The notes under the pieces: model-generated
Databases searched by the model: none
What the model was told of the DNA's origin: nothing
The model's input: the letters and a program-made list of their open reading frames with translations, nothing else
Part shown: positions 15,451-36,261 of the stretch, piece by piece
Numbering within the stretch: position 1 is the first letter of the stretch
Layout of the letters: each line of letters opens with the position of its first letter
Origin: Acetobacteraceae bacterium
Lineage (GTDB): Bacteria > Pseudomonadota > Alphaproteobacteria > Acetobacterales > Acetobacteraceae
DNA length: 64,000 nt
Assembly: GCA_003151425.1 (NCBI GenBank)
Contig: PLXO01000336.1
Span: 1 to 64,000 of the forward strand
Direction of reading: 5' to 3'
Position numbers and translations under genes: made by a program

Positions 15451-15600
15451 TCGCCTGTGGCGCGCCAATGGATAATATCAGGCGGATGGTTCCCGCGCCC
15501 GAAGATCGGGCGGTGGGCCGGGTGCGGATATTCACACCGGATTGGTGCGCACGTTAGAATGCTGACGCGGCCAAGATGATTCCTTGCGGCGGAATTCCTG

Positions 15601-15866: not shown

Positions 15867-15959
15867 TGCCCCGCCACGCGGTTGAGGTGTTGGTGCGGTC
15901 AACAACCGGTTGGTTGGCACGCGGCACTCATCGCCGTGCGGCAGGAGGGCCGTCTAACT

Positions 15960-16841
15960 ATGAACGACGTCCAAGACGGCTACGGGTTCGAAATCGTCCG
16001 GCGACAGGATTTCTCCGACGTTACCTACCTGCTTGAAGTCCGCCATCCCCTGATGGCAAAGGCCGCGCAGCCCGGTCAGTTCGTCATCGTCATGTCCGGC
16101 GAGCATGGCGAACGCATCCCCCTGACCATCGCTGATTTCGATCGCACCGCCGGCACCGTCACGCTGGTGATACAAGCGGTCGGCAAGACCACGCGGGAGA
16201 TGCAGCAGACCTGCCAGGCCGGCACGCACCTGCATGCGCTGGTCGGCCCGATGGGCATCCCCACCCATATCGGCGCCGCACGCAAGGTGGTCTGCGTCGG
16301 CGGCGGCCTGGGCGTCGCCCCGATCTATCCGCAGGCGCGCGCCTTCAAGCAAGGTGGCGCCTACGTCATCGGCATCCTCGGCTTCCGCAACAAGGACCTC
16401 ATCTTCTGGGAAGACAAATTCCGCGCCTGCTGCGACGAGGTCATCCTGTGCACCGATGACGGGTCCGCCGGGTTGAAGGGCTTCGTCAGCGACGGCATCA
16501 AGCAGGCCCTCGCCGCCCACACCGACATCGACGAGGTGGTGGCGATCGGCCCGCCGGTGATGATGAAGGCCTGTGTGGAAACCACGCGCCCGCTCGGCAT
16601 CAAGACCATGGTGAGCCTCAACCCGATCATGGTCGACGGCACCGGCATGTGCGGCGGCTGCCGCGTGAAACTCGGCGACCAGGTGAAGTTCGCCTGCGTC
16701 GACGGGCCGGATTTCGACGGCCACCTGGTCGACTTCGACGACATGATGCGTCGCCTGCGCCGCTACGCCGAGGCGGAAAAGGCGGCCACCGCGCGCTGGT
16801 CGGATAGCTGCCGCATGGCGACCCTGCAGGCGGCGTTGTGA
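15960..16841 (+). CDS. FAD/[2Fe-2S] NAD(P)H reductase subunit (NfnA/SudB-like)
   Basis: A 293-residue flavoprotein of the ferredoxin-NADP reductase superfamily, resembling the small subunit of NADH-dependent ferredoxin:NADP oxidoreductase and sulfide dehydrogenase. The FAD-binding barrel includes GERIPLTIADFD; the nucleotide-binding half begins KVVCVGGGLGVAPIYPQ. The C-terminal cysteines in GTGMCGGCRVKLG and VKFACVDGPDFDG form a [2Fe-2S] site. The ATG at 15960 follows GGAGGG. It is the first gene after the FNR-type box and precedes its partner large subunit in the same direction. In the family it exchanges electrons between NAD(P)H and the partner flavoprotein. Confidence 0.87.
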   Translation: MNDVQDGYGFEIVRRQDFSDVTYLLEVRHPLMAKAAQPGQFVIVMSGEHGERIPLTIADFDRTAGTVTLVIQAVGKTTREMQQTCQAGTHLHALVGPMGIPTHIGAARKVVCVGGGLGVAPIYPQARAFKQGGAYVIGILGFRNKDLIFWEDKFRACCDEVILCTDDGSAGLKGFVSDGIKQALAAHTDIDEVVAIGPPVMMKACVETTRPLGIKTMVSLNPIMVDGTGMCGGCRVKLGDQVKFACVDGPDFDGHLVDFDDMMRRLRRYAEAEKAATARWSDSCRMATLQAAL

Positions 16842-16908
16842 CCCGGCATGGCCGATCGGCGGAAAGAACGAAGCATGGCAGGCACCGACACCCCCTCCAC
16901 GTCATGAC

Positions 16909-16933
16909 CGTCCCCGGGCTGGACCCGGGGACG
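16909..16933. repeat. 10-bp perfect hairpin, REP-type
   Basis: CGTCCCCGGG (16909-16918) and CCCGGGGACG (16924-16933) are perfect inverted repeats around a five-base loop. Such palindromes are widespread intergenic repeats in alphaproteobacteria. There is no T-tract, so it is not a standard terminator. It lies in the gap between the two flavoprotein genes and could modulate transcript stability. Confidence 0.5.
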
Positions 16934-17020
16934 ATCGTGACGTGGGCGGATGACAGTGCCGGCTATGCGTTGATTGCTTCGGACAAACGAATTGCAATTG
17001 TACTGCCCTGGTGAACAGTA

Positions 17021-18508
17021 ATGGCGAAGAAACGAACGATCCGCACGATCCCCCAGCAGCGCACGCCGGTCCGGGAACAGGACCCGGCCGAGCGCGCCCA
17101 CAACTTCGCCGAGGTCAACTGCGGCTACACCGAGGCCGAGGCGCTGCTGGAAGCCGAGCGCTGCCTGTTCTGTCCCGATCCGGTCTGCGTCGCCGGCTGC
17201 CCGGTCGGCATCGACATCCCCGCCTTCATCGAGCGCATCTCCGCCAAGGACGTCCACGGCGCCTATGACGCGATCGGGCGCACCAACCTGCTGCCGGCGG
17301 TGTGCGGCCGTGTCTGCCCGCAAGAAACCCAATGCGAGGGCCGCTGCATCGTCGGCGACACGCTGGAGCCCGTCGCGATCGGCCGGCTGGAACGTTTCGT
17401 TGGCGATCGCGCCATCGCCGAGGGCTGGGCCAACCTGCCGCACATCGAGCCGAACGGCCGGCGCGTCGGCATCGTCGGCTCCGGCCCCGCCGGCATGGCC
17501 TGCGCCGCCGACATGGCCAAGGCCGGCTGCGAGGTCACCGTGTTCGAGGCGTTCCACGAGCCCGGCGGCGTGCTGCGCTACGGCATCCCCGATTTCCGCC
17601 TGCCCAACGCGGTGATCGACGCCGAGATCGCCAACCTGCGCCGGCTCGGCGTGAAGTTCCAATGCAACACCCTGGTCGGCCGGCTGTTCACCATTGCCCA
17701 GATGATCAGCGAGATGGACTACGACGCGGTGTTCATCGGCACCGGCGCCGGCTATCCCGCCATGCTCGGCGTTCCCGGCGATTCGCTGAACGGCGTGCTG
17801 TCGGCGAACGAGCTGCTGACGCGCTGCAACCTCATGCGCGCGCGCGACTTCCCCGCCTACGACACGCCGATCCCGCTCGGCCGCCATGTCGCGGTGGTCG
17901 GCGCCGGCAACACCGCGATGGACGCGATGCGTGTTTCGTTGCGGCTCGGGGCGCAGAACGTCACCTGCGTCTATCGCCGCACCAAGGCGGAGTGCCCGGC
18001 CCGCGCCGAGGAAGTCCATCACGCCGAGCAGGAGGGCGTGGTGTTCAAGTGGCTCACCGCGCCGGTCGAGGTGCTCGGCGACGACCAGGGCAACGTGCGA
18101 GGCATGCGCTGCATCGCCATGGAGCTGGGCGCGCCCGACAAGTCCGGCCGCGCCCGCCCGGTGCCGATCCCCGGCAGCGAACACGAGATCGCATGCGACG
18201 AGGTGGTGTTCGCGATCGGCACCAACGCCAACCCGATCATCGGCCAGACCTCGCGCATGCGCCTCGACAAGCGCGGCTACATCGAAACGGATGCGGACCT
18301 TGCCACCTCGATGGCCGGGGTGTTCGCCGGCGGCGACATCGTCACCGGCGCGGCCACCGTCATCGAGGCGATGGGCGCCGGGCGCAGGGCCGCGCGCAGC
18401 ATGAAGGCGTATCTCGGCATCAGCGAGCCGGGCTGCTCGCTCGATGCCGCAACGATCTTCGGCATCCAGGCGAGCGAGCGCAACTTCGCCCGCATCCGTT
18501 GCGCCTGA
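17021..18508 (+). CDS. GltD/NfnB-like Fe-S flavoprotein (NADPH-dependent)
   Basis: A 495-residue homologue of the glutamate synthase small subunit and of the NfnB/SudA large subunit. The N-terminal cysteine clusters CLFCPDPVCVAGCPVGIDIP and CGRVCPQETQCEGRC bind [4Fe-4S] centres. The FAD motif is GIVGSGPAGMACAADMAKAG; the NADPH motif is AVVGAGNTAMDAMRVSLRLG. The C-terminal FAGGDIVTGAATVIEAMGAG closes the FAD site. No glutamate synthase large subunit is nearby; the preceding NfnA-like gene is the natural partner. The pair probably couples NAD(P)H to the ferredoxin pool used by the next two genes. No strong ribosome-binding site is seen at the ATG. Confidence 0.88.
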   Translation: MAKKRTIRTIPQQRTPVREQDPAERAHNFAEVNCGYTEAEALLEAERCLFCPDPVCVAGCPVGIDIPAFIERISAKDVHGAYDAIGRTNLLPAVCGRVCPQETQCEGRCIVGDTLEPVAIGRLERFVGDRAIAEGWANLPHIEPNGRRVGIVGSGPAGMACAADMAKAGCEVTVFEAFHEPGGVLRYGIPDFRLPNAVIDAEIANLRRLGVKFQCNTLVGRLFTIAQMISEMDYDAVFIGTGAGYPAMLGVPGDSLNGVLSANELLTRCNLMRARDFPAYDTPIPLGRHVAVVGAGNTAMDAMRVSLRLGAQNVTCVYRRTKAECPARAEEVHHAEQEGVVFKWLTAPVEVLGDDQGNVRGMRCIAMELGAPDKSGRARPVPIPGSEHEIACDEVVFAIGTNANPIIGQTSRMRLDKRGYIETDADLATSMAGVFAGGDIVTGAATVIEAMGAGRRAARSMKAYLGISEPGCSLDAATIFGIQASERNFARIRCA

Positions 18509-18566: not shown

Positions 18567-20558
18567 ATGAACGACGTAACCCTGCTGACCCCGCCAACCA
18601 CAAGCGACGAGCCAATCGCGCGCGACCGGCCAAGCGGTGACCAGCCTGCCGCCGGCGACAACCCAACCGCCCGCGACACAACAATCGTCCGCGACAACCC
18701 AGCCGCCCACGACAAAACCGTGACCACGCTCGCGGAACACATCGTCGAGATCATCAGCGACTCCGGCGAGGGCGCGCAGCGCTGCGGCCAGTGCATGGGC
18801 GCCATCGCCGCGCGCACCGGGTATGGCGTCTGGACGGTGGAGATCATCCCCGCCGAGATCCGCCCACCGGCCCGCAGCGTCGCCGGCGCCTCCGGCATCC
18901 GCATCCGCTTCGGCTCGCGCCGCATCACCAATGGCGGCAACGAAACGGATCTGGTGATCGCCTTCAACGAGCAGGTGCTGCTCGGCCGCGTGCGTGCCGG
19001 CGAGCTGAAACCGGGTGCGACCATCTTGCTCGAAAGCATGTGGCGGGAGGACCGCAACAAGGCGATCGCCGCCTCCTACGCCGAGGTGTACGACCAGGTC
19101 GTCGCCGCCGGCTACGACGTGCACGAAGTGCCGATGGAGCGCGAGTGCCGCACCATCGTCAGCGACCCGCGGCGCGGCAAGAACATGTTCGCGCTCGGCA
19201 TGCTCTGCAACATCTACAGCCTGGACATGCAGCTCGCCGCCGAACAGGTGGCGGCGATCTTCGGCAAGAAGGACCGCAAGATCGTCGAGACCAACGTCCG
19301 GCTGCTGGAAGCCGGCGCCGCCTGGGCGGGCCAAAACCTCGCATTCAAATACCGCATCCCGGCCGAGCCCGCGACCGAGCCGCAGATCGTCGTGAACGGC
19401 AACGTTGCGCTGGCGCTCGGCATCCTCGCCTCGGGGATGGAGGTGTGCGCCATGTACCCGATCACGCCGGCGACCTCCGCGTCCCACTATCTCAGCGACG
19501 TGTTCGAGCGAATCGGTGGGACCGTGCACCAGGCGGAAGACGAGATCGCCGCTTGCGCGTTCGCCCTCGGCGCCTCGTACGCCAACAAATGCGCCGTCAC
19601 CATCACCTCCGGTCCCGGCTATTCGCTGAAGCAGGAGGGCATCGGCCTGGCTGTCATGGGCGAGATCCCGCTGGTCGTCGTCAACGTACAGCGCGGCGGT
19701 CCGAGCACCGGCCAGCCCACCAAGGTGGAACAGGGCGACCTGCTGGCCGCCATGTTCGGCAGCCATGGCGACGCGCCTAAGGTGGTGATGGCCGCTGCCA
19801 CCATCGAGGACTGTTTCTACTCGGTGATCACCGCGCGCAACCTCGCCGAGACCTTCAACATGGTCGTGGTGTTGCTCACCGACGCCGCGCTGGCGAGCTC
19901 GCAGCAGCCGATCCCGCGCCCGCAGTTCCGCGAGACGTGGCTGGCGCCGCCGGCGGACCAGAGCGCGGTTCCCGACGGCACCAAGCCGTACAACTGGGAT
20001 CCCGTCACCGGGCTGGCGCGCCGCATCATCCCCGGCCAGCCCGGCGGCATGCACACCCTCACCGGCCTCGCCCACGACGGCCAGAGCCACGTCGCCTACG
20101 ACGCCGAGATCAACCAGCAGAGTATCCAGGCGCGCAGCCGCAAGCTGGCGGCGTTGCAAAAGACGCTGCTGCCGCCCCCGGTTTTCGGCGCCGACAGCGG
20201 CGAGCTGCTGGTGATCGGCTGGGGCAGCACGCGCGGGGCGATCGAGGAAGCGGTCGAGCAACTGCGCAACGAAGGCCGCGCCGTGTCGTCGATGCACCTG
20301 ACGTTCCTGCAGCCGATGGCGCCCGGCATCAAGCCGATCATGGCGCGCTTCCGCCAGGTGATGACCATCGAGGGCAACTGGTGCGATTCGCCGGACGACC
20401 CGCTCATCGACGAAAGCAACCGGCGCTACACCGCGCTCGCGATGCTGCTGCGCGCGCGCTACCTGGTCGATGTCGACTGCTGGTCCGAGGTCAAGGGCCA
20501 GCCGATCAAGCCGTCGCTGATCCGCGCCGCCATTCTGCGCAAATTGCTGACGCAGTGA
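18567..20558 (+). CDS. korA: 2-oxoacid:ferredoxin oxidoreductase, fused gamma-alpha subunit
   Basis: A 663-residue KorA-type subunit. Residues about 50-250 form the gamma domain (SGEGAQRCGQCMGAIAARTG, PAEIRPPARS). The alpha domain then follows (CAMYPITPATSASHY, ITSGPGYSLKQEG, VNVQRGGPSTGQPTK). With KorB it oxidatively decarboxylates a 2-oxoacid, probably 2-oxoglutarate or pyruvate, to acyl-CoA and reduces ferredoxin. The first 45 residues are an odd low-complexity lead of repeated R/G-D-x-P-x-A/T units (for example RDNPAAHDK) absent from ordinary KorA. GAGG lies eight bases before the ATG. KorB follows 14 bases after the stop. Confidence 0.92.
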   Translation: MNDVTLLTPPTTSDEPIARDRPSGDQPAAGDNPTARDTTIVRDNPAAHDKTVTTLAEHIVEIISDSGEGAQRCGQCMGAIAARTGYGVWTVEIIPAEIRPPARSVAGASGIRIRFGSRRITNGGNETDLVIAFNEQVLLGRVRAGELKPGATILLESMWREDRNKAIAASYAEVYDQVVAAGYDVHEVPMERECRTIVSDPRRGKNMFALGMLCNIYSLDMQLAAEQVAAIFGKKDRKIVETNVRLLEAGAAWAGQNLAFKYRIPAEPATEPQIVVNGNVALALGILASGMEVCAMYPITPATSASHYLSDVFERIGGTVHQAEDEIAACAFALGASYANKCAVTITSGPGYSLKQEGIGLAVMGEIPLVVVNVQRGGPSTGQPTKVEQGDLLAAMFGSHGDAPKVVMAAATIEDCFYSVITARNLAETFNMVVVLLTDAALASSQQPIPRPQFRETWLAPPADQSAVPDGTKPYNWDPVTGLARRIIPGQPGGMHTLTGLAHDGQSHVAYDAEINQQSIQARSRKLAALQKTLLPPPVFGADSGELLVIGWGSTRGAIEEAVEQLRNEGRAVSSMHLTFLQPMAPGIKPIMARFRQVMTIEGNWCDSPDDPLIDESNRRYTALAMLLRARYLVDVDCWSEVKGQPIKPSLIRAAILRKLLTQ

Positions 20559-20572
20559 GGGAAGATCGCATC

Positions 20573-21619
20573 ATGCCCGACACTCATATCGCCCACTCGC
20601 ACACCGAATGCCTGCTGCGGCTGCACGACGAACAGTACGATCTTGAGGACTATCAGAGCGGCGTGCCGCGCTGGTGCACGGGATGCGGCGACAACGCCAT
20701 CCTGACGGCGGTGCAACGACTGTGCCGCGACGAGGCACTGCCGCCGGAAAAGACCGTGTTCATTTCAGGCATCGGCTGCTCCAGCCGCTTCCCGCACTAC
20801 ATGAAGACGTACGGCCTGCACGGCATCCACGGCCGCGCGCTGCCGATCGCCGAGGGCGTCAAGATGGCGCGCCCCGACCTGAACGTGTTCGTCAACACCG
20901 GCGACGGCGACTGTTGCAGCATCGGCGCGGCGCACTGGATCCATGCCATCCGCTACAACATGAACCTGACGGTGATGCTGCACGACAACCAGATCTACGG
21001 GCTGACGAAGATGCAGGCCTCGCCCACCTCGCCGATCGGGCTGAAAAGCAACACCACGCCGCGCGGCTCCTATCTGGAGGCGCTGAACCCGCTGAGTGTC
21101 ACGCTCGGCGTGCAGAACGTTTCGTTCGTGGCGCAGGCGGTCGATTGGATTCCGGACGTGCTGTACGACGTGATCGCCGCGGCATTCCACCACAAGGGCA
21201 CCGGCTTCGTGCGCATCCTGCAACGCTGCCCGGAATGGCTGCCGAAGATGTTCGAGCCGTATGTGCAGGATCCGTCGCGCATCAAGCTGCTGCACCACGC
21301 GCGCGGTCTGACGCTCAGCCCGGGGACGGCGAAGATCTACCGCACGCAGGAGGAACACGATCCGGGCAATCTCGACCGCGCACGGGAGATTGCTTCCGGG
21401 CGCGATCCGATCCCGGTGGGCATCATCTACCACAATCCGGACGTCCCCTGTTACGAGGAGGTGCGCCACGCTGGAAAACTCCGCTCGCCGGAGCTGATCC
21501 GCAACGGCCTGGAAGCCGAGTTCGATAAATTTACGATCTGGCCGTCGGGCTGGCCCCCGGGCTCGCCAGGGAGCATCGGATCGGGCGGCCGACCGGACGC
21601 GCGCAGCGCCACGGCCTGA
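20573..21619 (+). CDS. korB: 2-oxoacid:ferredoxin oxidoreductase beta subunit
   Basis: The thiamine-diphosphate and [4Fe-4S] subunit, 348 residues. Cluster ligands are the two cysteines of WCTGCGDN, the cysteine of SGIGCSSRFPHY and the late cysteine of NPDVPCYEE. The thiamine motif is VNTGDGDCCSIGAAHWIHA ending in MLHDNQIYGLTK. AGGGAAG precedes the ATG at 20573. The gene is tightly coupled to korA. Ferredoxin reduced here is a strong low-potential donor; in Thauera the equivalent enzyme supplies benzoyl-CoA reductase, and in phototrophs or diazotrophs nitrogenase is another consumer. No consumer gene is inside this window. Confidence 0.93.
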   Translation: MPDTHIAHSHTECLLRLHDEQYDLEDYQSGVPRWCTGCGDNAILTAVQRLCRDEALPPEKTVFISGIGCSSRFPHYMKTYGLHGIHGRALPIAEGVKMARPDLNVFVNTGDGDCCSIGAAHWIHAIRYNMNLTVMLHDNQIYGLTKMQASPTSPIGLKSNTTPRGSYLEALNPLSVTLGVQNVSFVAQAVDWIPDVLYDVIAAAFHHKGTGFVRILQRCPEWLPKMFEPYVQDPSRIKLLHHARGLTLSPGTAKIYRTQEEHDPGNLDRAREIASGRDPIPVGIIYHNPDVPCYEEVRHAGKLRSPELIRNGLEAEFDKFTIWPSGWPPGSPGSIGSGGRPDARSATA

Positions 21620-21697
21620 TCCGCGGCGAACGCGGATCGAACCGGACCCTGGCAAACCCGGACGCTGGCAAACATGGACATGCGAGGCGACGGCAAC

Positions 21698-24040
21698 ATG
21701 CAAGCTGCACATCAAGCGCAGGTGACGTTCTACCTCACCGGCCAAAGCACGCGCGATGGCCTCGATGCCGTCGAGGGGCTCGGCCTGCGTCCCGCACTGT
21801 TCGCCGGCTACCGCGACCTGACCGCGTTGCGCTACGACTTTCCGCTGGTGCTGCTGCCAGGCGCCGACGGCGCCGGCGCGGTGCGCTCGCTCAGCGAACT
21901 GTTCGACGCCGCGCTCGACACGGTGCTCGACGCTGGGCTCACCGGCGCACTCGCCGGCGCGACCGGCGCCGATCGCTTGCGCCACCATGCCGGTCGCATG
22001 GAGCGCGAGATGCGCCGCATCGCCGCGGCGGACGGAGTCGGAACGTTCCGGGAAATGTGGCAAACGGCAGCGCAGCGCCTGAGCGCGCGCGCCGACGACG
22101 AGGGTTTCGCCGACAGTCTCGCGCGCCTCGGAGCAAATCTGCCAGCCGACGGGCAGGTGGTTGATTGCGACGCCGCCCTGCCTGGGCGCCTGTTCTCGCA
22201 CGCCTGCACCGCGGTTCACCGGCGCAAGGCGGCGCTGTTCCGCGCCGATCTGACCCGGCTGATCCAGAAGCTGTCCGACATCCTGCGCGCCGACTTTGCC
22301 CGTTCCGACGAAGGCCACAGCGCCGAGAACCTGCGCGCCGCGATCGGCCAACCGCAGGCGCAGGCATTCGATTTCGCGGCGATGTCGCGCATGCTGGCCA
22401 GCGTCTCCGCGCCCTCCCTGCTGGCGGACAGCCGCCGCGAGCGCATCCGCTGGCTGCTGTCGGTACTGCAATCGCAGCGCTTCTACGCCCCGCCCCAGGA
22501 CGCCGCCGCACCGGCGCAGGCGTTGCCGGGATACCGCTTCACGTTCGACAGTTGCAGCCAAGCACTGGAAGCCTGGCACGAGCGGCTGCCCAGGCTGGTG
22601 GAGCTGACCAAGGCGATCGCCATCGCCGAGCTGGAGGTGAAGGGTGACTACCGCGAGGCGGATCACGACGCCGTCTTCGCCAGCTTCGGCGCCAACCGTG
22701 TGGGCGTGGCCGAGCGGGCCCGGTTCCCGGATTATCTGGCACGGATCGACACCGGTACAATAACGCCCACCGAGTTCACCCGCGTGCTCGATGCGCTCGC
22801 GAGCGGCCTGCCGCTGAAGATCCTGCTGCAGACCGACGACATTCTTGCCCCGCTCGTCGACGATCCCGCGCGCGCCTCGTTCGGCCTGTGCGCCCGCACG
22901 CTGACCAACGCCGCGATCGCACTGAACGAGACGTTCGTCTTGCAGTCCAGCGCCTCGAACTTGCCGCGCCTGCGCGACCGATTGTTCGCCGGGCTGGACT
23001 ATCCCGGCGCAGCGTTGTTCTCGGTGTTCTCCGGCGCGAGCGGCCACGCGGGCGACATCCCACCCTATCTTGTCGCCGCGGCGGCGATGGAATCGCGCGC
23101 CTTTCCGGCCTTCGTCCACGACCCGTCGGCCGGGGCGGACTGCGCCGCCCGCTTCAGCATTGCCGGCAACCCGCAGCCCGAGCAGGACTGGCCGGTGCAT
23201 AGGCTCGACTACGAGGACGCCGAGCACCAACGCGTCGGCGAAACCGTCGCCGTCACGGCGGTCGACTTCCTGGCCTGCGACCGGCGCTACGCCGCGCATT
23301 TCGCGCTTGTTCCGCGGGCGGACTGGAACGGCCAGATGGTGGAAGCAGCCGAGGCCATCGCGCATGGCACCGACACCGCTTCCGGCAGCGTCCCATGCCT
23401 GCTGATGGTCGACGCCGGCAATCGGCTGCAGAAGGTGATGGCCGACGACTGCATGATCCGCGAAGCGGGGCGCGCGGGCGCGATGTGGCGCAGCCTGCGC
23501 GAGCTTGGCGGCATCCGCAATTCGCATGCCGAGCGTCTGCTCGCCCATGAGCGTGCGGCGTGGCAGGAGCAGCAACAGCGCGAGGTCGCCGCAGCCCGCG
23601 CGGTCGCGGTCGCCGAAGCGAGTACGCCCCAGGGCGCGTCGCAGGGTGCGCTCCAGGGGGCGTCCCCCGGCGCGCCCGCGGACGCGCCCGCCCGGGGGAC
23701 AAATATCGCAGTTGCAAGGATTGCAGGGGCCAAGGCGGCGGCGACCGAGACGGCCGTAGCCGAGGCGGCGGTTTCCGAGCCCGAGCGTTCGCCGGATGAG
23801 CCCTACATCGAGACTGCGCGTTGCAGCAGTTGTAACGAGTGCACGCAGATCAACGATAAGCTGTTCGCCTACAACAAGGACAAGCAGGCTTACATCGCCG
23901 ATGTGACCGCCGGCACCTACCGCCAGCTCGTCGAGGCCGCCGAAAGCTGCCAGGTTTCCGTCATCCACCCCGGCAAGCCGCGCAATCCCAAGGAGCCGGG
24001 ACTCGACGAACTACTGAAGCGCGCCGAACTGTTTCAATAG
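21698..24040 (+). CDS. large protein of unknown type with C-terminal ferredoxin domain
   Basis: A 780-residue protein. Residues 1 to about 620 match no domain I know but keep a regular, charged soluble composition, with a PFOR-like patch SRAFPAFVHDPSAG and RFSIAGNPQPEQDWPVH. An Ala/Gln/Pro-rich linker (about 625-700) follows, with repeats such as GASQGALQGASPGAPADAPA. The last 75 residues form a single [4Fe-4S] ferredoxin: C709-x2-C712-x2-C715 and C751. I prefer the ATG at 21698 because GAGG lies upstream; an ATG at 21674 would add eight residues. It is 78 bases after korB, same strand, so it is probably the electron acceptor or a partner of KorAB carrying its own tethered ferredoxin. Confidence 0.8.
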   Translation: MQAAHQAQVTFYLTGQSTRDGLDAVEGLGLRPALFAGYRDLTALRYDFPLVLLPGADGAGAVRSLSELFDAALDTVLDAGLTGALAGATGADRLRHHAGRMEREMRRIAAADGVGTFREMWQTAAQRLSARADDEGFADSLARLGANLPADGQVVDCDAALPGRLFSHACTAVHRRKAALFRADLTRLIQKLSDILRADFARSDEGHSAENLRAAIGQPQAQAFDFAAMSRMLASVSAPSLLADSRRERIRWLLSVLQSQRFYAPPQDAAAPAQALPGYRFTFDSCSQALEAWHERLPRLVELTKAIAIAELEVKGDYREADHDAVFASFGANRVGVAERARFPDYLARIDTGTITPTEFTRVLDALASGLPLKILLQTDDILAPLVDDPARASFGLCARTLTNAAIALNETFVLQSSASNLPRLRDRLFAGLDYPGAALFSVFSGASGHAGDIPPYLVAAAAMESRAFPAFVHDPSAGADCAARFSIAGNPQPEQDWPVHRLDYEDAEHQRVGETVAVTAVDFLACDRRYAAHFALVPRADWNGQMVEAAEAIAHGTDTASGSVPCLLMVDAGNRLQKVMADDCMIREAGRAGAMWRSLRELGGIRNSHAERLLAHERAAWQEQQQREVAAARAVAVAEASTPQGASQGALQGASPGAPADAPARGTNIAVARIAGAKAAATETAVAEAAVSEPERSPDEPYIETARCSSCNECTQINDKLFAYNKDKQAYIADVTAGTYRQLVEAAESCQVSVIHPGKPRNPKEPGLDELLKRAELFQ

Positions 24041-31389: not shown

Positions 31390-34300
31390 TCATGCTGGGA
31401 GATACTGCTTTAGTTTACACACATGGACTGTTTCCGCGGGTAAGTGCGCGGCTAGTTCAAGCAGATGTCGATGATGCGTTAACAGGATCACCTGAACACT
31501 CCGACTCAGCTCCAATAGCATTCGCATAGTCGCCAAAGCCCTGTCGTCGTCGAAGGTCTGCAGAATGTCGTCGCCGATGAACGGCAGCGGCGGAGCCATT
31601 GCGGCGTGTTCCTCGATCGCCGCCATACGCAGCGCAAGAAAGAGCTGGTCTCGCGTTCCCTCAGACAATTGCCCAACGTACTTGGGTTCACCAGGAAACG
31701 CACGTTCACGCAATACTAGCAGTTGGGTCTTGTCATCCTCCGTTACGGTATGAACGCGGTCGTAAACTCCGTCAGTCAATGTTCGGAACAATTCGCTGAT
31801 CCGCCTCAATAGTTCCGAATCACCTGCTGCGTCGACTGACGCGAGCGATTTCTCCAGCAGTGCCGAGGCGATATGCGAGAGTAAGGCCTCCTCTAGAACT
31901 CGCCCGATCGTTGCTGCGGCCGCCTGCTGCTCCATCACCGCGGTGCTTGCGGACGTTGCTGTCGCGTCACGCTCCATCTGCTGCGCAATGCGCGCGATTT
32001 GCGCGGCCGCCGCTTGCGCCGCGTCGTTGGCATCTTTTCGGTCGCGCGAGGCGCGGTCGATCATCGTCTCGATGTCGTCGGCTGAAACTGAGGCCACTTC
32101 GGCTCTCAGCCCTTCTAATGAAAGCGCCTGACCCGCTTCGTGCAGCCTCGCCTGAGCGTCAGCCAAGTTTAAGTCCTGGTGCCGTCGCTCGGCAGACAAT
32201 GCGAGTCGAGCTTCCGCCGCCTCCACCGAGTCCGCTCCGATCAGCAGCAGCGTCGCGCGTAACGCCGCGCGGTGTTCAGCCAACTCGCGCTCTGCTTTGA
32301 TTGCACTCGCCTGGGCACTCTCGAACTGGCTCTGCAACAGACTGTGCTGCTTCTCAAGTCCGCGTTGATGGATCAGACGTCTGCTGAGCTCCGCCACCGC
32401 GTCGAACGGTGTCAGTGCGTGTAGGTCCGATGCAACCGATGAGACAAGCACGCTGGCTGCGGATCTGAACCGGCGATCGTCTGCATCCATTCCCACAATG
32501 CGGGAGGTCAATGCGGCCGCCGCCTGGTCTTCCCCTGCAAGGTCGATCATGAGTTGAAGGAGTTCGTCCGTCACCTCGGGTTCTTCATCGGCCGGCCGTC
32601 CAAGTTCGGCCATCAGACCGCGCCACTTCCCCTGCCAATCGGCTAGCGCTGCCGTATCCGCCGAAATCTTGTCGTGTTCCTTTGCCAACGCTTCGACTGC
32701 GCTTGCGCGCCGGTCGGCAACCCGCGCCCTTTCAGCACGGGCGTCGTTGGCATGTTTGAGCACTTGGTCCGCAGCGGCAAGGCACTGCGTCAACGTCAGC
32801 GGCGGATCTGGCCGCAGTGAGAGGTGAGCAGTTAGCTCGGCCACCCATAGGGCATGTTGGCTGTCGAGTGCGCGCAGGATATTCTCGGTGGTAGCGCGAG
32901 CCCGCATAACGTCAATAACGCGCTCGCGGGCAGTGAGAAATGCGTGCACCTCGCCGATGGTCGGGGCCGCACCGAGGGGCAGGCCAGTGCACGACTGCGA
33001 CCACGCCCGCTCCACAGCCTGCAGTACCTCGCGTTGTACGCGGTGTCTCTCCTCGGCCGCAGAGACTCTTGCCTGAGCCTTCGCCACCGCAGAGCGATAG
33101 ACCTCGGCCTGCACGATGGCTGAACCGTGCTGCATGCGGATGTCGGCCATTGCGTCCGCCGCCGAGACCGCGCGTTCATATGCCAATGGCAAGGGCAGTT
33201 CCCGGGTAAACGGCGCTTGCTCCTCCGCAGAGGGCGGGTCGTCGGTGAATGCACGACGGTAGATCAAATGCCAACCAGCATCGCGATGCGCGCGTGAACC
33301 GACCAAATCCTGCTCGCTCACTATCACGCCAGCCTCGCTAATCGCGGCAAGACGTTCAATTTCCCTTCCAAGCGCGTCCTTCGCTTCGTCCACTAGCTTC
33401 CGACGATTGAGTTCCTCGGTGCGGGCCGCGTCCCTATCCGCAGCGGGCTGATCATAGGCGATTGGCTGCAGGGGAGCGAGATCGGAAAGCGCCTGCGCCC
33501 CGGAGGTCCATCCCGGCACACGTGCCAAAGCGTCCGACAAGGCAACGTCTGCGTTCGTCAGGGCCGCGGCGAGCTCGCGGCGGCGGCGGGCCGGATCTCC
33601 CTCGCTACGAATCTCTTGAACCAAGGTTTCGAGGGCCTGTGTCTCGGCTACAGGCGACAAAGCGGCGAGCTGCGCATCAATGTGCGCGAGATTCCGGGCA
33701 AACTCAGCGACCCTGCGCTGCGCAGAGTTCATCGCGGAGACCTGGTCACGATGGGCCGCTATCAATCGGCGGGCGCGGTTGATTGCGGACCGCGGTGGAA
33801 TCGCCTTTGCCGCATTCGTTACCAGCTCGGAGCTGCCGAGTTCCTGTAATAGCGCGGCGATCCGTCTGCGGCATGTGTCGAGTTCGGACTGCACGCCGGG
33901 CAGGTCGGCCGCCGCCTTGCGCGCGGCACCGGCCGCCTCCACCAACCGATCGATCCCTACGGCCGCGGCCAGCAATGGGGCGTCCAGCACAATCGACTGG
34001 AGCTGTTCAGTGAGCTGACCGACTTGCGCGTGATCTCTTGCGGCACGGTCCTCCGCCATTACTATGGCGGCGCGAATATCCGCAAGCCGAGTTGCCAGAT
34101 CGGCGTCGAGCACCGGTGCGTCAGGATGCGCGGCCACCCACGCGGCGGCTTCGTCATAAACAGCAAGCCACGGTGCGACGCGGCGTACTCGTTCCAGCCG
34201 AGCGATCTCCGCCGATCCGAAATCAGCCCGCTTGTTCAGTTCCTCTAGATGTCCCTGCGTTTCCCGTAGCTCTCGTTCCTGTCTCTCCCAATGTTCTGGC

Positions 34301-34908
34301 TTGAGCACGCTGTTGCTGAGCTGTCGGCGAGAGGCGACAAATTTTTCCAGTTCGACGTAGAACGGCCGTTGACTGGATCGGCGCATCGGAGCCAGGGCGT
34401 CGCGTGCTGCCTCAAGCGACTCCCGCAATCGCGTTGCGTCGCGGGTCCCTCCCGCGCCGGAGACCAGCGCGGCAGCGAGTGCGCCATTGGACGCCAACAG
34501 TTCATCTTGGCCCTCGCGCAACTTTTCAGTGTTCAGTGCGAACAGCCGCTCCAGCAGGGTACGGTCAGTACGGCCAAGAACGCGGGCCAGGGTCACTGGA
34601 TCGAGCGTATTCCCCTCGCCATCGACGAGTGTGTTGCCTTGTCCCTTTCGGCGGCCAAACGTGAAGCGTTCACCCTCCTTGGTGATTGCGTCGGCCGAGA
34701 CACGCATCCCCGCGTAGCCGTGTCGGAACCCCATCGGGGTCTGCCCACTGATACCGAACAGCAGATCGCAAAACGCGCTTCGCAGCACGGATTTGCCGCT
34801 GCCGTTCGGTGCCACGAGCAGGTTGATCGTGCCGGGCCGAGCGTCGAAGGTAATGTCTTCTGACGCGAAGTTGCCGTAGTTCCTGAGTGACAGCGAAGTC
34901 AGCCGCAT
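31390..34908 (-). CDS. YhaN/SbcC-like SMC-type ATPase
   Basis: A 1172-residue ABC-type ATPase. Walker A is APNGSGKS at residues 33-40. Two long coiled-coil arms (about 200-540 and 600-1000) follow. The C-terminal ABC signature is LSEGTRDQLFLALRMA, Walker B is LPFIGDDILQTFDD and the switch His is in LLTHHRH. The family partners a Mre11-type nuclease and handles DNA ends or hairpins. It starts three bases after the nuclease gene stop. There is no visible zinc-hook CxxC in the coiled-coil middle, favouring YhaN over true SbcC. It is the second gene of the operon. Confidence 0.88.
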   Translation of the reverse strand: MRLTSLSLRNYGNFASEDITFDARPGTINLLVAPNGSGKSVLRSAFCDLLFGISGQTPMGFRHGYAGMRVSADAITKEGERFTFGRRKGQGNTLVDGEGNTLDPVTLARVLGRTDRTLLERLFALNTEKLREGQDELLASNGALAAALVSGAGGTRDATRLRESLEAARDALAPMRRSSQRPFYVELEKFVASRRQLSNSVLKPEHWERQERELRETQGHLEELNKRADFGSAEIARLERVRRVAPWLAVYDEAAAWVAAHPDAPVLDADLATRLADIRAAIVMAEDRAARDHAQVGQLTEQLQSIVLDAPLLAAAVGIDRLVEAAGAARKAAADLPGVQSELDTCRRRIAALLQELGSSELVTNAAKAIPPRSAINRARRLIAAHRDQVSAMNSAQRRVAEFARNLAHIDAQLAALSPVAETQALETLVQEIRSEGDPARRRRELAAALTNADVALSDALARVPGWTSGAQALSDLAPLQPIAYDQPAADRDAARTEELNRRKLVDEAKDALGREIERLAAISEAGVIVSEQDLVGSRAHRDAGWHLIYRRAFTDDPPSAEEQAPFTRELPLPLAYERAVSAADAMADIRMQHGSAIVQAEVYRSAVAKAQARVSAAEERHRVQREVLQAVERAWSQSCTGLPLGAAPTIGEVHAFLTARERVIDVMRARATTENILRALDSQHALWVAELTAHLSLRPDPPLTLTQCLAAADQVLKHANDARAERARVADRRASAVEALAKEHDKISADTAALADWQGKWRGLMAELGRPADEEPEVTDELLQLMIDLAGEDQAAAALTSRIVGMDADDRRFRSAASVLVSSVASDLHALTPFDAVAELSRRLIHQRGLEKQHSLLQSQFESAQASAIKAERELAEHRAALRATLLLIGADSVEAAEARLALSAERRHQDLNLADAQARLHEAGQALSLEGLRAEVASVSADDIETMIDRASRDRKDANDAAQAAAAQIARIAQQMERDATATSASTAVMEQQAAAATIGRVLEEALLSHIASALLEKSLASVDAAGDSELLRRISELFRTLTDGVYDRVHTVTEDDKTQLLVLRERAFPGEPKYVGQLSEGTRDQLFLALRMAAIEEHAAMAPPLPFIGDDILQTFDDDRALATMRMLLELSRSVQVILLTHHRHLLELAAHLPAETVHVCKLKQYLPA

Positions 34909-34911
34909 CGC

Positions 34912-36180
34912 TCAAGCCTCCGCGAGGCGAGCTATCAACAGAGCGCGCGCGCGTTCGATCAAGGCTCCTGGGACCTTGCCCGCCGCGGCAGCAACCACTG
35001 CGTGCTCCTCGCCGAGAGCCTCGCGCAGCCCGCCCGCTCGATCCAGCATAGTGCGGCAATAGTCCTCGATCGTCGCTTGCAGTTCGTCCGGACTGGTGCC
35101 TTCAATCGCCCGCACCAGCAGCCCGAACGCGTCGGCACGCTCGCGCAGCGCGGCAATGTCGAGTGATGGGCGGGTATTGACTTCCACGCCCTCGATCCAA
35201 AGCGCGTCGGGGCCGGCGCAGCCTAACGCCTCAGCGCGCACTTTCTCACGGACGGCGCCAAGGTCGCGGCTGAACGCCGTATGGGCCGCAGTGGCGCCGC
35301 TCAACGCGACACGGGCCGCCAGGAGACGACCGTCGGCGCCCGAAATTGCATCAAGTAAGGCGGAACGGGTCAGCGCCATTGCCACGTCTTCGTCGGCGTC
35401 GCCCGGCAGTTCAATCGGTACAACCCGCCATCGCACAGTGTCGAATGTCACCGGCTCGACCCGGCGGACTTGATCGTCCTCAACGGTGACGAGTGTAGCA
35501 CCCTTCGGGCCAGTCTCGCCGATATGGCGCCCCTGTAGGTTGCCTGGGAATACGATCCACGGGTCTGAGCACAGCACCTCGCGGGTATGGACATGTCCAA
35601 GGGCCCAGTACTGGTACCCGTGGTCGCGCAGTTGCTCCAACGTGCAGGGCGCATAACGATTGTGGGGCGGTCGCCCCTCTACGGCGGTGTGAAGCAGGCC
35701 GATGTTCAGACAACCCGGTATTGCCGGTGGGTAGCTTGGGACAATGTTCTCTGTCATCGCGGGCTCGGCGTAGCTCCGTCCGTGAATGCGAACGTTGAAA
35801 GCCGGTAGCTCCACGGTTTCGCATCGGCCCGGCTTGAGGAGCTGGGCCGGAGGTGGCGGCTCCAAATGACGCGTGATGACGCTGTCGGCATCATGGTTCC
35901 CACGAATCGCTATGAGTGGGATGCCGGCGCGGTTGAGGCGCCCAATCTGCGTGATGAGGAACCGGCCCGTGCGCCAGTCGCGCCAGTCACCGTCGTAGAG
36001 GTCGCCCGCTGCGAGTACGAAGGCGACGTTCTCCTCGATGGCAAAGTTGACGAGGTTGACCAGCGCATCACGCGTGGCGTTGCGGATGCGCTCCACCGGG
36101 GCGTCCGGATCGGCTTCGAGGCCCCGCAGGGGGCTGTCGATGTGCAGATCCGCGCAATGGAGGAACCGGAACGACGCCAT
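34912..36180 (-). CDS. YhaO/SbcD-like metallophosphoesterase nuclease
   Basis: A 422-residue calcineurin-fold DNA nuclease. Metal-binding motifs are in order: ADLHID, AAGDLYDGDW, IRGNHD, LLHTAVEG and ALGHVHTRE. A C-terminal domain of about 150 residues should contact the ATPase partner. I chose the ATG at 36178-36180 (MASFRFLHCADLH); a TTG at 36204 would add eight residues and neither has a clear ribosome-binding site. It leads the operon and is coupled to the YhaN-like ATPase. Expected role: trimming or sensing of damaged DNA ends. Confidence 0.88.
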   Translation of the reverse strand: MASFRFLHCADLHIDSPLRGLEADPDAPVERIRNATRDALVNLVNFAIEENVAFVLAAGDLYDGDWRDWRTGRFLITQIGRLNRAGIPLIAIRGNHDADSVITRHLEPPPPAQLLKPGRCETVELPAFNVRIHGRSYAEPAMTENIVPSYPPAIPGCLNIGLLHTAVEGRPPHNRYAPCTLEQLRDHGYQYWALGHVHTREVLCSDPWIVFPGNLQGRHIGETGPKGATLVTVEDDQVRRVEPVTFDTVRWRVVPIELPGDADEDVAMALTRSALLDAISGADGRLLAARVALSGATAAHTAFSRDLGAVREKVRAEALGCAGPDALWIEGVEVNTRPSLDIAALRERADAFGLLVRAIEGTSPDELQATIEDYCRTMLDRAGGLREALGEEHAVVAAAAGKVPGALIERARALLIARLAEA

Positions 36181-36261
36181 GGAGCCGATAAAAGGCTGGT
36201 CCAAAGTCGATGCGCAAGCCCCGCCGCTGCACAGGCCCCTCGCGCAGAACGCCCAGTCATA

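Follow-up and report, generated by a model that had tools for sequence, protein, structure and literature searches.

Two-subunit 2-oxoacid:ferredoxin oxidoreductases (KORs) carry the cluster of KorB only and require an external ferredoxin. The structurally known two-subunit examples, of the Sulfolobus type (5B46-5B48), are not known to have a partner derived from pyruvate:ferredoxin oxidoreductase (PFOR). The window analysed here, a stretch of 64,000 nucleotides from an Acetobacteraceae bacterium, encodes KorA and KorB of this same kind, followed by a protein, P0001, that is related to PFOR. P0001 is homologous to NifJ-type PFORs (Moorella 6CIN-6CIQ, Desulfovibrio 1B0P/7PLM) over domains V-VI, but lacks their domains I-IV, three [4Fe-4S] sites and TPP site, and has a C-terminal ferredoxin in addition. 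Long PFORs ending in a ferredoxin (loci L003 and L004) have the same order of parts from the pre-domain-V linker to the ferredoxin, together with inserts that canonical PFOR does not have; however, they keep the clusters, the TPP motif and domains I-IV, whereas P0001 is a separate gene without these motifs. The NfnA- and NfnB-like genes of the window (15957-18508) resemble NfnAB and the fused Nfn AadN (PMC9973337; review PMC6405883), and the excerpts of these two papers do not mention a PFOR-derived ferredoxin adaptor. In the literature covered, two cases come nearest. In the anaerobic degradation of aromatics, electrons are supplied by either KorAB or an Nfn homologue (excerpt of PMC9973337). 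In the Riftia symbiont, a dimeric korAB and a "PFOR-like" gene are co-regulated and change expression together (excerpt of PMC11636981, which contains no analysis of active-site loss). No description of a PFOR pseudoenzyme acting as an electron-transfer adaptor was found in the full-text literature, a weak negative as only open-licence papers were covered.

The five genes of the window operon lie on the forward strand in the order nfnA-nfnB-korA-korB-P:

15957-16841, forward strand: nfnA-like FAD/NAD-binding protein with a [2Fe-2S] domain (PF10418; NF004862 above cut-off)
17021-18508, forward strand: nfnB/gltD-like flavoprotein with Fer4_20 (TIGR01316 above cut-off)
18567-20558, forward strand: korA, alpha subunit with fused gamma domain (TIGR03710)
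20573-21619, forward strand: korB, beta subunit of a two-subunit 2-oxoacid:ferredoxin oxidoreductase, TPP motif and cluster cysteines intact
21698-24040, forward strand: P0001 ("P protein"), 780 aa plus stop, predicted PFOR-derived pseudoenzyme with C-terminal ferredoxin

The open frame of the nfnA-like gene begins at 15576, with a likely start at 15957, and for korA a start at 18567 is likelier than one at 18444. The adjacent NfnA-like (DHODB/PyrK-type) and NfnB/GltD-type genes form the pair expected of an Nfn. KorB retains CxxC, GIGCSS, GDGD and the distal cysteine, the alpha subunit is of the OAFO type, and the neighbouring korAB thus looks catalytically intact, judging from its motifs. An earlier note, made from the DNA alone, correctly placed P0001 directly downstream of korB but overlooked the NfnAB-like NAD(P)H:ferredoxin transhydrogenase genes upstream of korA. 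The E1 of 2-oxoglutarate dehydrogenase was found in all 11 genomes searched, including that of the window, so that KorAB as a replacement for this enzyme is unsupported; the TCA cycle can be closed without this pathway and the KOR would be an additional route. The genome of the window (97% complete) gave no RnfC match, a weak negative since this search had no positive control. An apparent ordinary NifJ-type PFOR (G000:C15:23371-26820, L047/L049; open frame of 1219 aa) was seen in the same genome, and P0001 is thus not the only PFOR relative there.

P0001 can be divided into four parts:

21698-22546, forward strand: residues 1-283, remnant of the PFOR pre-domain-V linker and of domain V
22547-23587, forward strand: residues 284-630, degenerate PFOR domain VI (TPP-binding fold) and C-terminal extension
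23588-23797, forward strand: residues 631-700, flexible low-complexity linker rich in Ala, Pro and Gln
23798-24037, forward strand: residues 701-780, single [4Fe-4S] ferredoxin with predicted ligands C709, C712, C715 and C751

The frame is already open from an ATG at 21674, but the relatives at L039, L067, L072 and L073 start at the position equivalent to 21698, which supports this start, the one chosen previously. An antisense open reading frame of 1067 aa (20765-23968, reverse strand) lies opposite korB and P0001; no evidence for coding was found and it is considered a high-GC shadow, because conservation at the protein level sits on the plus strand.

The approximately 630 N-terminal residues of P0001 matched no Pfam, NCBIfam or PHROGs model; the whole protein had no match in NCBIfam and only Fer4_13 above the cut-off in Pfam. 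In tblastn against plasmids and in a whole-genome search, however, P0001 matched the C-terminal part of PFOR-like proteins of 1630-1740 residues, the alignment with these long PFORs running from the pre-domain-V linker through the last residue. The N-terminal part of P0001 aligned along its full length with domains V-VI, the C-terminal half of PFORs of the long, ferredoxin-ended type. The family profile matched that of the long PFORs with hhalign (100%, E 4e-101) and that of canonical split PFORs without ferredoxin tail (99.6%, E 1.4e-23, 494 columns), whereas the unrelated RnfC, used as a control, reached 10.6% on the ferredoxin cysteine motif only. Structure models built from P-family sequences alone (pLDDT 69.5, then 79.2) retrieved exclusively PFOR chains at the top of Foldseek searches of the PDB (ranks 1-17, then 1-18; probability 0.97-1.00); the TM-scores were low (0.17-0.20 by query length) and we thus make no claim on the overall domain arrangement. 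Searching the PDB directly with phmmer, only the ferredoxin of P0001 was matched at a meaningful E-value, and the family profile matched PFOR weakly (E 0.11). The link to PFOR thus rests on the long-PFOR intermediates, the profile comparison and the fold search. A completely new domain is ruled out by the hhalign and Foldseek matches, and what had been taken for an undescribed domain is a diverged PFOR domain V-VI over its whole length. The profile-profile search, the structure prediction and the comparison with PFOR domains, all suggested at that time, point to PFOR, and the short PFOR-like patch then pointed out is genuine: SRAFPAFVHDPSAG...NPQPEQDWP of P0001 aligns with ESRAYPLFRFNPDLG...GNPAIDADWP of a PFOR. 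The segments that P retains and that distinguish long from ordinary PFORs are residues ~178-265 (a helical insert specific to long PFORs), 293-328 and 542-582, as well as the ferredoxin tail.

The features that define the enzyme are lost. Both CxxCxxCxxxC motifs of domain V are deleted from residues 1-283 of P0001 and, in domain VI, the TPP/Mg motif GDG...NTGGQ and the cysteines of the proximal cluster are replaced, while NPQPEQDWP is near-invariant; the same deletions and replacements were observed in every member of the P family inspected, which for the domain-VI sites covers all 15 relatives aligned. Domains I-IV (POR_N, gamma, EKR) are absent from the 780 aa. P0001 is thus homologous to PFOR without being a PFOR enzyme; it is predicted to descend from the C-terminal half of a long PFOR with a ferredoxin tail and, from these losses, to be catalytically inactive.

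The C-terminal part was previously described as a single-cluster ferredoxin behind a Pro/Ala/Gln linker, and this was confirmed at the sequence level. Fer4_13 matched residues 705-757 (E 1.2e-5, 26.4 bits for a Pfam cut-off of 24.5), the C-x2-C-x2-C...C pattern is present, and phmmer against the PDB retrieved 1DAX, of the Desulfovibrio ferredoxin I type. The four predicted ligands are the only invariant cysteines across the 15 relatives aligned. The linker has a pLDDT below 50 over most of its length.

A scan of genome contigs and two genome searches yielded 16 distinct P-family members, including the one of the window and a partial one (L070), of which 15 were included in the alignment and the tree. 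Two of the finds, L038 and L071, appear to be one contig: PKWQ01000067.1 carries the title Acetobacteraceae and looks the same as G852:C225, from a genome placed in the family of the window genome, and title and placement may disagree. We recovered the monophyly of the P family with maximal support (100/100), with two subclades and 34 invariant columns in the alignment. The family is rare, being present in 5 of 385 genomes from the class, with the window genome counted. The ferredoxin is its best-conserved part, with 54% identity between the subclades versus 17-33% elsewhere. Between P0001 and L038, which are 80% identical, dN/dS was 0.30 (NG86) or 0.17 (YN00), which shows that the coding sequence is under purifying selection. 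With NG86, the same pair gave 0.13 for the ferredoxin and 0.32 for each of the two dead domains, so that selection maintains the latter as well. P is, on this sequence evidence, a new, selected family of predicted PFOR pseudoenzymes with a tethered ferredoxin.

The gene neighbourhoods were conserved as well. korB lay directly upstream of P in 14 of 14 loci having upstream sequence. The complete order nfnA-nfnB-korA-korB-P was present in seven loci (the window, L040, L067, L068, L069, L072 and L073) and was cut short by contig ends in L070 and L039, which show part of it. In the sister subclade, L043-L046 showed korA-korB-P-rnfB-X-rnfC-rnfD, plus rnfG and rnfE in those with sequence beyond this point, L042 showed P-rnfB-X, and L041 ended with korA-korB-P; rnf genes followed P in all five loci of this clade with downstream context. 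Nfn or Rnf thus neighboured P repeatedly, across distant taxa. The protein X of the rnf clusters has the length of a PFOR:

L042:3992-8497: X
L043:14256-18185: X
L044:12596-17161: X
L045:6968-11740: X
L046:11110-15744: X

X proteins form one clade (100/100) and have the two [4Fe-4S] motifs of domain V, but lack the active-site residues of domain I, the proximal cluster and the TPP motif; X is a second predicted PFOR-derived pseudoenzyme. Four full-length PFORs, with cluster and TPP motifs intact and the same ferredoxin at their end, are located in rnfB-PFOR-rnfCDGE clusters, rnfB being at the far end in L003:

L003:4548-9437: long PFOR with ferredoxin (Persicobacter)
L004:4230-9278: long PFOR with ferredoxin (Gemmatirosa)
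L029:5210-10162: long PFOR with ferredoxin (G327)
L030:5413-10422: long PFOR with ferredoxin (G421)

The presence of these apparently active PFORs within rnf clusters suggests direct PFOR-to-Rnf coupling. In five other loci (L031, L035, L074, L075 and L076), a long PFOR (~1670-1690 aa) with a ferredoxin-like tail is followed by nfnB-nfnA, and is the putative PFOR-Nfn counterpart of the window operon.

Since the relatives of P0001 are always located beside KorAB and mostly beside Nfn or Rnf, P0001 is probably a dedicated electron plug between them. The reading that we favour, and consider reasonably probable, is that this PFOR pseudoenzyme has been kept as a scaffold and tethered ferredoxin linking KorAB to Nfn and, elsewhere, to Rnf. 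The PFOR-like body would dock KorAB and/or the Nfn-like flavoproteins of the same operon; in long PFORs this fold would face their own ferredoxin tail, and we infer that the body of P is a likely docking platform. The ferredoxin, on its flexible linker of ~70 residues, would swing between the cluster of KorB and NfnB, and the electrons from the oxidation of a 2-oxoacid, the presumed substrate of KorAB, would reach NAD(P)+ without relying on free ferredoxin. Alternatively, electrons could take the same path in reverse, towards reductive carboxylation. For the sister subclade, Rnf would be the partner of this adaptor. Nfn and Rnf both exchange electrons between ferredoxin and NAD(P)H, and the replacement of one by the other between the subclades is consistent with such an adaptor, with the KorAB side fixed and the far side variable; further support comes from the segments that P shares specifically with long PFORs together with the position of the latter next to rnf or nfnB-nfnA. 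The synteny by itself is compatible with direct docking and with co-regulation alone. The earlier suggestion that P0001 serves KorAB as a built-in electron acceptor or scaffold is supported, but the presence of Rnf in the place of Nfn in distant relatives suggests a bridge and not an acceptor alone. A larger assembly is conceivable, although we regard it as tentative: P (ferredoxin) and X (domain-V clusters) may wire KorAB to Rnf, or P alone KorAB to Nfn, in a dedicated supercomplex in which electrons would pass between 2-oxoacids and either NAD(P)H or an ion gradient with no free ferredoxin involved.

Other functions were considered. It is unlikely that the PFOR-like body, as a subunit of KorAB, has mainly a structural or protective role, such as stabilizing the dimer or keeping oxygen from its cluster, with a secondary role for the ferredoxin: the E1 of 2-oxoglutarate dehydrogenase in the genome fits an oxygen-exposed lifestyle and conservation extends past the ferredoxin into the dead body, but it is highest in the ferredoxin by both identity and dN/dS, with the four ligands invariant. 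We consider it quite unlikely that P0001 carries the electrons of KorAB to another low-potential consumer (benzoyl-CoA reductase, nitrogenase or other) while Nfn feeds the pool independently. KorAB does supply benzoyl-CoA reductase in Thauera aromatica, and in R. palustris this role falls to KorAB in some strains and to the Nfn homologue AadN in others (both from the excerpt of PMC9973337); however, no aromatic-reduction gene was present among the window neighbours examined by Pfam, and it is Nfn or Rnf that recurs beside P across distant taxa. A catalytic or sensing role of its own for an altered domain VI still binding a ligand (in a modified TPP site, CoA or a nucleotide) could account for the strongly conserved core around NPQPEQDWP and QSS, but appears highly improbable, the recognised TPP/Mg and cluster ligands being gone in every member and the absence of domains I-IV preventing the formation of a normal active site. 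Finally, a decaying PFOR fragment located by chance beside korB, as the large deletions relative to PFOR might suggest, is barely credible and was rejected, given dN/dS values far below 1 for each dead domain (window versus L038), the single clade formed by 15 relatives with its invariant columns, and the conserved operons.

If the adaptor reading is right, P would directly couple a ferredoxin-dependent 2-oxoacid oxidoreductase to Nfn or Rnf, with bearings on the operation of KOR in oxygen-respiring or autotrophic sulfur bacteria and on the energy accounting of reverse TCA fixation. P could also be used in engineering as a modular ferredoxin tether. Should the supercomplex reading be true, a central metabolic enzyme would have been turned into an electron-relay scaffold. 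There is a bearing on annotation too, as P-type genes will otherwise be labelled ferredoxin, hypothetical or, wrongly, PFOR. Elsewhere in the window, an AAA_27/SMC-like ATPase of 1172 aa (31390-36204, reverse strand) adjoins a calcineurin-like phosphoesterase, an arrangement that recalls an SbcCD-type pair.
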